Positions 25,529 through 57,522 of a DNA stretch of 64,000 nucleotides are shown in pieces. The stretch's first letter is position 1; every line of letters begins with the position of its first letter. The position numbers and the translations under genes were made by a program. The notes beneath the pieces were generated by a model. The model did not search any database, had not been told where the DNA came from, and saw only the letters and a program-made list of their open reading frames with translations. The stretch comes from Phyllobacterium myrsinacearum (GTDB lineage Bacteria; Pseudomonadota; Alphaproteobacteria; Rhizobiales; Rhizobiaceae): contig NZ_JACGXN010000001.1 of the NCBI RefSeq assembly GCF_014138285.1, positions 361,314 to 425,313 of the forward strand, written 5' to 3'.

Positions 25529-25972
25529 ATGGTCAAGCGAACGAGCCACAAGGATGATCCATGCCCGGTGGCAAGGCCACTGGATGCGATCGGAGACTGG
25601 TGGTCACTGCTGATAATACGCGACGCGTTTGAGGGATCGCGGCGTTTTGGGGAATTCCAGAGAAGCCTTGGCCTGGCCAAGAACATCTTGTCGACGCGGC
25701 TGCGCAATCTCGTTGCCCACGAGATCTTTACGGTGGAGCCCTGTGCGGATGGCAGCGCCTACAATGAATATGTCCTGACCGATAAGGGTCGCGGCCTATT
25801 CCCGCTGCTTGTTGCCTTGCGGCAATGGGGTGAGGAATATTATTCCGACAGCTACCAGGGTACAGTTCAACTGGTCGACCGTGAGACGGGCCGGCCCGTG
25901 CGTCGGCTGGAGCTGCGCTCCGATGACGGCCGCCTGCTCGGCCCGGATGATACGGTGGTTGTCGGACACTAG
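25529..25972 (+). CDS. HxlR family transcriptional regulator
   Basis: 147 residues: winged helix of the HxlR type with the Cys near the N-terminus (DDPCPVARPLDAIGDWWSLL), IIRDAFEGSRRFGEFQRSLG, AKNILSTRLRNLVAHEIFTV and LTDKGRGLFPLLVALRQWGE. HxlR proteins sense aldehydes, quinones or other electrophiles, often through that Cys. It is divergent from the MFS gene. The stop codon TAG (25970-25972) lies inside the CTAG end of a palindromic repeat element, so the original C-terminus may have been altered by insertion. Confidence 0.9.
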   Translation: MVKRTSHKDDPCPVARPLDAIGDWWSLLIIRDAFEGSRRFGEFQRSLGLAKNILSTRLRNLVAHEIFTVEPCADGSAYNEYVLTDKGRGLFPLLVALRQWGEEYYSDSYQGTVQLVDRETGRPVRRLELRSDDGRLLGPDDTVVVGH

Positions 25973-26047
25973 TGGAACGAATTTGACATTCGCATCCCAT
26001 TTGACATCACGCGAAACAAGCGAATGTCAAATTCAAAGTTCCACTAG
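25969..26047. repeat. Palindromic repeat element, copy A
   Basis: 79 bp. Outer arms CTAGTGGAAC / GTTCCACTAG are perfect, inner arms GAATTTGACATTCGC / GCGAATGTCAAATTC are perfect, with AAA unpaired between them on the right side and a 26-base loop. TA flanks both ends inside CTAG. The left end supplies the stop codon of the HxlR gene. Confidence 0.92.
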
Positions 26048-26060
26048 AATTATAGACTTG

Positions 26061-26137
26061 CTAGTGGTCCTTTGATTCTGACATTTGCCTGAATGGCCTG
26101 TATCAAAGGGTTGCAAATGTCAGAATCGGACCACTAG
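26061..26137. repeat. Palindromic repeat element, copy B
   Basis: 77 bp, same design as copy A but inverted: CTAGTGGTCC-TTT-GATTCTGACATTTGC on the left and GCAAATGTCAGAATC-GGACCACTAG on the right, all arms perfect, with a 24-base loop. The unpaired triplet TTT sits on the left. It starts 13 bp after copy A. Confidence 0.92.
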
Positions 26138-26177
26138 CGGCGAAAAGCCGCCGGCAGGCCTTTAATCCGATCACACT

Positions 26178-26209
26178 GAAAACGGCCTCGTGGATACGGG
26201 GCCATTTTC
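26178..26209. terminator. Terminator-like hairpin after the repeat pair
   Basis: GAAAACGGCCTCG / CGGGGCCATTTTC pair at 11 of 13 positions around a 6-base loop, with a T-rich right side. It could end transcripts coming from the HxlR gene. Confidence 0.6.
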
Positions 26210-26258
26210 TTTGGCACACCGGCCCCTTGGCAGTTCCGAGTCATAGTCTACAAATGCA

Positions 26259-26277
26259 ATTGCAAATCATTTGCAAT
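26259..26277. promoter_or_regulatory. Perfect 19-bp Fur/Mur-type box upstream of the Irr-like gene
   Basis: ATTGCAAAT-C-ATTTGCAAT: 9-base arms and a single central base. It resembles the TGCAAAT/ATTTGCA boxes recognised by alphaproteobacterial Fur/Mur. It lies 66 bp ahead of the ATG at 26343, in promoter position. Confidence 0.75.
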
Positions 26278-26342
26278 AATACTTGACGATGTCCTTGTTC
26301 TTCGTATTCTGTGGCGGCCTTACGAGAAGAACGGACCTTCAG

Positions 26343-26924
26343 ATGCTTTTCATACCCGATAATGTTCGCCGCCGCCTGCTCACAGAACGGGATCAACATC
26401 CGGGCACTGCTGTTACGGTCAGGGATCGTATCAAGAATGCGGGCCTGAGACCGACAAAACAGCGTCTGGCGCTGGGTCATATCCTGTTTAAGGAACAGCA
26501 GGGCCATACAACAGCTGATCAGCTTCACCGGGAGACGGTCAGATCGGGTGCGCGCATGTCGCTTGCGACAGTTTACAATACGCTCAACCAGTTTGCCGAT
26601 GCCGGGCTTCTCTCGAGGGTCAATCTCGATGGCGAACAGAGCTATTTCGACATCAACACCAGCAACCACCACCACTTCCATCTGCAGGCGACGGGACTCC
26701 TGATCGATATTCCAGCGGAGGAACTGACCTTCGGAAAATTGCCCTCCCCGCCGGACGGTTACAGAATATCCAAGATCGATGTACTGATCGGGCTCGAACC
26801 AGTTATCGAAGCAGACTGCCCTCTCTCGGTCGCGTGTACGGTTTGCGGCGGACGCGAGGAAGCGGAGAGCGGCTGCGCAGGACCAAAGCCGCATACGTGG
26901 AATGAAAAAAGGCCCCGTCAATGA
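26343..26924 (+). CDS. Fur superfamily regulator, Irr-like
   Basis: 193 residues from ATG 26343 (in-frame starts at 26283/26289 lie almost on the operator and lack a ribosome site). The DNA-binding half has AGLRPTKQRLALGHILFKEQ and MSLATVYNTLNQFADAGLLS. The dimer half has YFDINTSNHHHFHLQ with the three-His motif and LPSPPDGYRISKIDVLI, as in Irr, the heme- and iron-responsive regulator of Rhizobiales. After the normal Irr end there is an extra tail of about 35 residues with four Cys (DCPLSVACTVCGG and ESGC), which is unusual. It is convergent with sodB, suggesting a role in iron or oxidative stress. Confidence 0.8.
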   Translation: MLFIPDNVRRRLLTERDQHPGTAVTVRDRIKNAGLRPTKQRLALGHILFKEQQGHTTADQLHRETVRSGARMSLATVYNTLNQFADAGLLSRVNLDGEQSYFDINTSNHHHFHLQATGLLIDIPAEELTFGKLPSPPDGYRISKIDVLIGLEPVIEADCPLSVACTVCGGREEAESGCAGPKPHTWNEKRPRQ

Positions 26925-26953
26925 CAAGGCCTCTTTCACTGTTCAAAGAAAGC

Positions 26954-27553
26954 TTATTTGGCTTTTTCGTAGAGTTCGAGAACATAATCCCAGTTGATGA
27001 GACTGTCGACGAACGCTTCGAGATACTTCGGACGGGCATTGCGGTAATCGATGTAGTAGGAATGTTCCCAGACATCGACGCCGAGGATCGGCGTTGCGCC
27101 ATGAACCAGCGGGTTTTCGCCGTTTGGTGTCTTGGAGATTTCAAGCTTGCCGTCCTTGACGGAGAGCCAAGCCCAACCGGAGCCGAACTGAGTGGTACCG
27201 GCAGCGATGAAATCGGTGCGGAATTTGTCGTAGCCGCCCAGATCCGATTCAACGGCCTTTTCCAGAGCGCCCGGAAGCTTCTTGCCGCCGCCGTTCTTCT
27301 TCAGCCAATGCCAGAAATGCAGATGGTTGTAATGCTGGCCGGCATTGTTGAAAAGACCGGCGTTCTTGCCATAGGACTGCTTGACGATCTCTTCAAGCGA
27401 GAGATTTTCAAGACCGGCTTCGGCAGCCAGTTTGTTGCCGTTGTCAACATAAGCCTTGTGATGCTTGTCATGATGATATTCCAGCGTCTCGCGCGACATG
27501 AAGGGGGCGAGTGCGTCGTAATCATACGGCAGTGCGGGCAGTTCGAAAGCCAT
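26954..27553 (-). CDS. sodB: Superoxide dismutase, Fe/Mn family
   Basis: 199 residues, full length. Metal ligands are seen at His27 (EYHHDKHH), His77 (HYNHLHFWHWL), and Asp and His in GVDVWEHSYYIDYRN. It dismutates superoxide to oxygen and peroxide in the cytoplasm. The residue pattern fits the Fe-type common in Rhizobiales, but Fe versus Mn cannot be decided by eye. GGAG lies eight bases before ATG 27553. It ends 29 bp from the Irr-like gene, tail to tail, with a weak AGGCC/GGCCT hairpin between. Confidence 0.95.
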   Translation of the reverse strand: MAFELPALPYDYDALAPFMSRETLEYHHDKHHKAYVDNGNKLAAEAGLENLSLEEIVKQSYGKNAGLFNNAGQHYNHLHFWHWLKKNGGGKKLPGALEKAVESDLGGYDKFRTDFIAAGTTQFGSGWAWLSVKDGKLEISKTPNGENPLVHGATPILGVDVWEHSYYIDYRNARPKYLEAFVDSLINWDYVLELYEKAK

Positions 27554-28742: not shown

Positions 28743-28817
28743 GTGGAACGAATTTGACATTCGCATCCCATTTGACATCACGCAGGGCGCGCAAATGTCA
28801 GAATCAGGGGTCCACTA
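28743..28817. repeat. Palindromic repeat element, copy C (hybrid arms)
   Basis: The left part (GTGGAACGAATTTGACATTCGC and 19 loop bases) is identical to copy A. The right arm (GCAAATGTCAGAATC...GGTCCACTA) is instead of the copy B type. The arms therefore pair imperfectly. The left TA end is lost. Confidence 0.85.
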
Positions 28818-57071: not shown

Positions 57072-57386
57072 GTGGCATTCCAGTGCGATCTCCCCGCAAT
57101 ACCGACCGTTCAGCAGGATGACGACACCGTCCGTATAACCCGCTGGGATTTTCAACCGGGTGCGGTCACGGGCTGGCACGAGCATGGATGGCCCTACTTT
57201 GTTGTCATGCTCATGGATGGAACCCTGCGGATTCACAATGGAACCGATATAACCGATGTTCCTCTTGTTGCCGGCCAATCCTATCAGCGCCCGTCGGGTA
57301 TCAGGCATGACGTCATGAACGGTTCGCCACACCCGATAGCCTTTGTCGAGATTGAGATCAAAAAGCCCGAAGCGCTTGTCGCCTAG
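57072..57386 (+). CDS. Small cupin domain protein
   Basis: 104 residues, one cupin barrel: RITRWDFQPGAVTGWHEHGW carries the first motif (HxH with Gly), then PYFVVMLMDGTLRIHNG, and the second motif lies in YQRPSGIRHDVMNGSPHPIA. The His residues could bind one metal. Start at GTG 57072. The stop codon TAG (57384-57386) lies within the CTAG end of repeat copy D, so the C-terminus is set by that element. Substrate unknown. Confidence 0.82.
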   Translation: MAFQCDLPAIPTVQQDDDTVRITRWDFQPGAVTGWHEHGWPYFVVMLMDGTLRIHNGTDITDVPLVAGQSYQRPSGIRHDVMNGSPHPIAFVEIEIKKPEALVA

Positions 57387-57456
57387 CGGAACGAATTTGA
57401 TATTTGCATCCCATTAGACATTACGCAGGACATGCGAATGGCGGAATTGGACCGCC
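57383..57456. repeat. Palindromic repeat element, copy D (degenerate)
   Basis: CTAGCGGAACGAATTTGATA... matches the left arm and loop of copy A with few changes (40 of 44 bases by eye). The right arm (GCGAATGGCGGAATTGGACCGCC) has decayed further. The CTAG end provides the cupin gene stop. Confidence 0.8.
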
Positions 57457-57522
57457 AGGCGGAACTTCGGCTGATCTTCACTGTTAACCGTAATGGCCAT
57501 TTGATTCCAATGGAGACGCACC

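Follow-up and report, generated by a model that had tools for sequence, protein, structure and literature searches.

Among the described repeats, CIR and BIME-1 appear closest in layout to the element reported here, judged by their descriptions, and by the same kind of comparison RUP with IS630-Spn1 is the closest in mechanism. CIR repeats are known from Caulobacter and Brucella (Chen and Shapiro 2003, via PMC2229807). In the accessible text of PMC2229807 they are alphaproteobacterial repeats with two hairpin arms, a linker and TA ends, and on this description they resemble our element; they are shorter (~110 bp against ~165 bp) and carry GANTC at or near the loop, whereas here the GANTC site, GATTC/GAATC in hairpin B, lies in the stem. 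The same text calls the mechanism of CIR mobility unclear, with more information needed, and describes repeats other than CIR as lacking arms or linker, their stem-loop arising from pairing of the ends. RUP of Streptococcus pneumoniae, proposed there as a MITE of IS630-Spn1, is like our element small and intergenic, with a TA target and ends common to an IS630 element, but measures 107 bp (PMC2229807, accessible part). BIME-1/RIB of E. coli has, like the element, two opposed palindromes, and its IHF-interacting spacer would correspond to the IHF-like linker described below (PMC2817692, accessible part). Unlike the element, BIME-1/RIB is REP/RAYT based. To our knowledge, IS630-type ends and CTAG duplication are not among its features; Boccard and Prentki is a cited reference on these E. 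coli elements.

Within Hyphomicrobiales, Bru-RS1/Bru-RS2 of Brucella are also palindromic intergenic repeats, but of 103-106 bp (available portions of PMC10800456, PMC2266754 and PMC2267715). RIME of Rhizobium is, to go by the title of a reference, a mosaic intergenic repeat of the same order, and the available portions of PMC5082802 and PMC3733652 deal with rhizobial repeats other than this element. A literature search, which covered few subscription papers, returned no paper recognised as describing the element; novelty with respect to CIR, Bru-RS and RIME was judged by their descriptions, and possible identity with one of them is the main doubt about it.

The window, that is the whole 64,000-nucleotide stretch of the Phyllobacterium myrsinacearum genome analysed here, was found to carry the element between the gene of an HxlR-type regulator and the genes of a Fur-family regulator and a convergent Fe/Mn superoxide dismutase (window 25529-27553). 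The Fur-family regulator is presumably Irr. In some relatives the HxlR gene is followed by a different sequence downstream. The features of the element are as follows.

25969-26137, plus strand: complete element, 169 bp including the duplicated CTAG at both ends (sequence, genome matches, unit alignment, empty sites)
25969-25972, no strand: left CTAG target copy, the TAG of which terminates the HxlR-type regulator gene at 25529-25972 (sequence, relatives)
25969-26047, plus strand: hairpin A, outer arms 25969-25978/26038-26047, inner arms 25979-25993/26020-26034, loop 25994-26019 (sequence, fold, covariation)
26035-26037, plus strand: AAA, unpaired insert on the right side, inner arm of hairpin A (sequence, fold, arm spacing)
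26048-26060, plus strand: linker AATTATAGACTTG, 13 bp, IHF-like, this copy agreeing at 7 of the 9 specified positions (consensus match)
26061-26137, plus strand: hairpin B, outer arms 26061-26070/26128-26137, inner arms 26074-26088/26113-26127, loop 26089-26112 (sequence, fold, covariation)
26071-26073, plus strand: TTT, unpaired insert on the left side, inner arm of hairpin B (sequence, fold, arm spacing)
26134-26137, no strand: right CTAG target copy (sequence, relatives)

Each hairpin has CTAG at both ends, outer arms of 10 bp and inner arms of 15 nt that are 100% complementary in A and in B. On rereading of the sequence, the arm lengths, the AAA and TTT triplets and the 13-bp gap reported in the initial annotation proved exact to the base. 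That annotation had taken A and B for two family members in opposite orientation; as A, linker and B recur jointly as one unit, the sequence comparison shows instead a single element, with A as its left half, B as its right half and a common linker. No ORF of at least 50 aa lies inside the element according to the ORF list of the window, the overlapping ORFs all starting or ending outside.

Copies in the genome and in relatives

Searching the genome (5.97 Mb, 40 contigs) with the element region gave 32 matches grouped into 21 places, eight of the double-hairpin type (one without part of A, one strongly diverged) and 13 with single hairpins; a pattern search added one weak place (C1:1885209, 3 mismatches). 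The outer arm of A alone had 19 genome matches at up to 3 mismatches, against none for a reversed-pattern control. Two shorter copies were located elsewhere in the window.

28743-28817, plus strand: second copy, a single hairpin with an A-left outer arm and a B-inner-like right arm (genome matches, arm scoring)
57383-57458, plus strand: third copy, with an A-left and a B-right outer arm, its CTAG being the stop codon of ORF 57072-57386 (genome matches, arm scoring)

ORF 57072-57386 is small and looks cupin-like by eye. When the arms of the 13 single-hairpin copies of this genome were scored by type, seven copies came out best as two outer-type arms (A paired with A in one, A with B in six), and the other six have an inner or mixed arm.

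Matches were present in 14 of 20 genomes of the genus and in 21 of 121 of the family, the own genome being counted in both and at most six candidates per genome being scored in the family search. At 57 loci that the genus and family searches had returned, cutting by both outer arms yielded 51 full double units of 165-172 bp; the remaining six loci gave no unit, and the partial or diverged L013, L016, L043, L051 and L053 were left out of the cutting. Plasmids contributed five more, for a total of 56 units, and Sinorhizobium was absent among the seven plasmid records matched by the element. In the unit alignment the outer arms of A and B are related and inverted.

A pattern scan for the linker with its inner CTAGs disclosed 117 stretches in a collection of species genomes and no match in the viral contigs scanned. 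The genera among the 80 of 117 stretches listed are Phyllobacterium, Mesorhizobium, Pseudaminobacter, Martelella, Rhizobium and Agrobacterium vitis, and the metagenome assemblies among the same 80 are labelled Methylocystis, Bradyrhizobium, Asticcacaulis, Novosphingobium, Erythrobacteraceae and others. The orders labelled on the assemblies with the pattern are Hyphomicrobiales, Caulobacterales and Sphingomonadales, the last two from metagenome assemblies. In one Methylocystis metagenome assembly (loci L232, L234, L236, L248 and others) the pattern lies repeatedly near the end of the fetched stretch, as if a high copy number broke the assembly.

The copies bear on whether A and B might be two independent MITEs inserted side by side by chance, as the initial annotation implied. 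The CTAG at both ends of each hairpin and the existence of single hairpins would suit such an origin, but the pair recurs in the 51 full units from 57 loci and in the five plasmid units, and the linker with both inner CTAGs in the 117 collection stretches. For the window copy independent insertion is refuted and keeps next to no probability; the pair may have arisen in this way in the remote past. The numerous copies that the annotation had anticipated were found in the own genome and in relatives, and the short, gene-less sequence with inverted terminal repeats and dispersed copies agrees with its description as a non-autonomous miniature element (MITE).

Target site and relation to IS630 elements

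At C1:1185909 the own genome reads CTAG-element-CTAG, and two relatives (G013, G015) have exactly one CTAG in a gap-free alignment; a third (G008) has a deletion. At the window locus, G003 and G015 have one CTAG and G008 has TTAG, at the stop codon of the hxlR-type gene; the alignment has a 4-nt gap directly behind CTAG/TTAG in G015 and G008, and G003 is aligned only up to the CTAG. At a P. trifolii locus (L047), G001 is of the right length but reads GTAA; of eight relatives there, six fall 2 nt short of a single-CTAG site. At the Martelella plasmid site (L194), an R. leguminosarum plasmid is of the right length but reads CTGA. For the copies at L190 and L191, near-identity plasmid searches for empty sites returned only those records themselves. 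The region of the Martelella plasmid copy (L194, 1200-2100) matches group II intron reverse transcriptase/maturase genes of Rhizobium plasmids.

The single TA or CTAG expected in relatives was thus seen at two loci, and at two other sites the relative was without CTAG; the target duplication proposed in the initial annotation holds on the evidence of C1:1185909 and the window locus. Insertion appears to duplicate TA within CTAG, a duplication of TA and one of CTAG being indistinguishable in these data. CTAG is named as a preferred target of IS630 in the title of a reference in PMC2170065. In the window this tetranucleotide occurs 28 times against 240 expected from base composition (~8.6-fold under-represented), so that fewer possible target sites are offered.

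IS630 elements were delimited with a script scoring only TA and inverted repetition. Thirty-five loci were taken first, and 14 of these with 10 new ones made up the final 24, the rest having no convincing pair or being repeats. Well-delimited copies of 1122-1184 bp were obtained at 20 of the 24, among them repeated copies of a single element within one genome, and in all 20 the terminal TA has C before and G after it, i.e. a CTAG target. One of them belongs to the ISAr1 family by the annotation of its record, and the two proteins of the group that were scanned have DDE_3 and helix-turn-helix domains. This ISAr1-like group of IS630 (e.g. the pRiA4 copy, L197) has in common with our element the TAGTGG ends, the CTAG target and an equal terminal-repeat spacing at the tnp-3' end; it differs in being ~1150 bp long with a DDE_3 transposase gene, the element being gene-less. 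The transposase gene (L188 and L189, read from the sequence; L195-L199, from annotated gene ends) seems to close with ...H and then the TAG of the right-hand CTAG, in which case its stop codon would come from the target duplication.

Outer arms and IS630 ends agree best in three pairs, with 2 mismatches in 23 positions; in one of these both partners are on a plasmid of Martelella sp. NC18, which thus carries the element and an IS630 copy with one end 21/23 identical. In an unselected comparison of 56 outer and 53 inner arms per kind with 32 distinct ends of the 20 IS630 elements, at positions beyond TAGTGG, outer arms differed on average at 5.8 (A) and 4.1 (B) of 17 positions, against 8.6 and 8.8 for shuffled sequences, and inner arms at 9.9 (A) and 10.3 (B) of 17, against the same 8.6 and 8.8. 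Inner arms therefore resemble IS630 ends no better than chance. With nine motif-picked ends (of 29) the outer-arm means were as in the unselected set and the margin over shuffles was larger. The arms of the element and the nearest IS630 ends are similar, not identical.

In the own genome the ISAr1-like transposase piece had no match; one IS630-profile match lay above cut-off (C30, a partial gene) and two were weaker, and the C30 locus showed neither an arm match nor matching ends. In G018 a broken IS630 gene is preceded, ~70 bp before its start, by CTAGTGGAATGAATGTGACGGTCGA, with 3/25 mismatches relative to an A outer arm; the open piece of this gene has matches in 20 of 199 family genomes and in 621 plasmid records. 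Only G050 in the family was positive for both the element and the transposase piece, the searched sets being different. The IS630-family transposase with matching terminal repeats that the initial annotation had suggested looking for was found in other genomes and plasmids, not in the own genome; its assignment to the IS630/mariner type is borne out by outer ends that match IS630 ends in sequence and spacing and by the CTAG target. An IS21 origin, suggested by a TTGACATT motif, was rejected: among 60 loci of IS21 and IS630 profile matches in the genus, 11 weak arm matches were found against 7 in shuffled sequence, and two of the 11 are the same IS630 end in G018.

Taken together, the conserved unit, the single CTAG at two loci and the IS630-like ends indicate that the element is very probably one ~165-bp copy of an IS630-type MITE, presumably moved in trans by a transposase of the ISAr1-like group and inserted at TA within CTAG. 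The transposase would recognise both outer ends, excise the element and insert it at a new TA within CTAG, duplicating the target. In this genome the copies seem to be a relic population that lacks a helper of its own.

Hairpins, inner arms and linker

With DNA parameters the fold z-scores on both strands are -8.1 to -10.5, and none of 200 shuffles was as stable. In 41 aligned units 97.1% of the pairing cells are paired. Covariation was detected at 24 of 50 pairs, with 153 cells changed on both sides; shuffles gave 12 and 47, and a slid pairing no more than 8 and 24. The units of this set are related and were chosen by similarity, and the structure was derived from the same sequences. G-T and A-C cells number 42 and 32, or 33 and 32 when columns 26-27, the innermost two in hairpin A, are left out; being about equal, they give no sign of the favoured strand that a role of the RNA in one orientation would predict.

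Two of the three copies in the window are at a stop codon. For ORFs of at least 150 codons, 15 of 56 units lie at a stop codon against 9 of 67 other CTAG sites (Fisher p 0.07), and for ORFs of at least 100 codons 17 of 56 against 12 of 39 and 9 of 28 CTAG sites. Insertion preferring stop codons was rejected, as there was no excess over the CTAG background at 100 codons and a weak one at 150.

It is conceivable that the hairpins are kept for a role in RNA, as a terminator, a stabiliser of mRNA 3' ends or a small RNA, with mobility secondary. The strong covariation speaks for such a role, as do the stop-codon placement at 150 codons or more and the position of the window copy, flanked by the hxlR stop codon and by a terminator-like hairpin at 26184-26203 (1 such hairpin found against 0.6 expected by chance). 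The lack of strand preference and of any stop-codon excess at 100 codons argues against it; Rfam, too, returned only matches far below the gathering scores. We regard a role in RNA as unlikely.

The spacing within the arms was measured on 110 distinct units (123 minus 10 duplicates and three unparsed), 57 of them found through the conserved linker. From GTGG to the core the distance is 8-9 nt in all 220 outer arms (A, 8 nt in 107 and 9 in three; B, 8 in 110) and 11-13 nt in 219 of 220 inner arms (A, 110; B, 109, the last having 8). The extra 2-5 nt thus sit on the inner arm in 219 of the 220 measured, and the insert is of equal size in both hairpins of 94 of 110 units, a count uncorrected for relatedness of the units. 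Among 40 IS630 ends, measured on 46 nt each, the distance is 8 nt in 24, 12 and 13 nt in one each, and 14 are without a recognisable core. By this measure each terminal hairpin has as its inner strand a copy of the terminal repeat whose spacing is broken by 2-5 extra nucleotides.

The insert is also what bears on a mutational origin of the arm matching, by template switching that perfects palindromes, rather than by selection. In the alignment the arms match far better within a hairpin than between hairpins, as this process would produce; it should, however, also have corrected the unpaired insert, which is retained in all but one inner arm and mostly at the same size in both hairpins. Such an origin seems less probable still than a role in RNA.

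Conservation is higher in the linker (mean majority fraction 0.77) than in the loops (0.58). Of 53 linkers cut from the 56 units, 44 are of 13 nt (33 distinct) and nine of 14 nt. The IHF consensus is given as WATCAANNNNTTR in the available text of PMC5896051, which also describes IHF sites as frequent in bacterial transposable elements. Scoring the 33 distinct 13-nt linkers, with the 14-nt ones left out, at the nine specified positions of WATCARNNNNTTR gave at least 8 positions in 11 and at least 7 in 23, against 0.3% and 2.2% of shuffled sequences; the reversed consensus reached at least 7 in two of 33, and at other places in the element 8 positions were reached in up to six units each. The window copy scores 7/9 and the Martelella plasmid copy 5/9, and the sixth position of the linker is mostly T, contrary to the consensus. 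As a consensus match, the linker resembles an IHF site.

The layout of the element could also be that of a REP/BIME-like repeat moved by a RAYT/IS200-type Y1 transposase: BIME-1 has two opposed REPs and an IHF-interacting spacer (PMC2817692, accessible part), and the hairpins are bulged. Such an element does not predict CTAG duplication on insertion or IS630-like ends, and Y1_Tnp (PF01797) had no match in the own genome, five of 14 control genomes being positive. On the latter ground a RAYT origin was rejected, and the REP/BIME explanation as a whole is highly improbable.

For the IS630-type MITE, the 2-5 extra nucleotides would put the inner arms out of register for the two DNA-binding parts of the transposase; with only the outermost ends used, the whole double hairpin would move as a unit, and a bend at the IHF-like linker may assist in pairing the ends. 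Six of the 13 single-hairpin copies include an inner-type arm, so that inner ends or deletions also yield copies and the rule of outer ends is not absolute. We tentatively consider a self-organised foldback IS630-type MITE, with hairpin ends carrying mis-spaced inner decoys and an IHF site between them, in which the decoys would restrict the transposase to the outermost ends (or hide the ends when these are extruded) and the bend would pair them; we hold this specific form to be possible but rather doubtful.

Meaning for alphaproteobacterial repeats

Judged by comparison of sequences, the mechanism is ordinary and well supported, and the two-hairpin form is unusual and widespread. A two-arm alphaproteobacterial repeat is now tied to a probable transposase group and a target site, and to an end structure that lends itself to testing; the inner-arm insert and the IHF-like linker give precise predictions on the parts that the transposase would use. 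If the foldback reading is true, the layout of BIME-1/RIB would have evolved independently on a DDE transposon, and the movement of CIR-type repeats may also be explained. With the linker pattern present in assemblies labelled Hyphomicrobiales, Caulobacterales and Sphingomonadales, the finding may bear on many genomes.
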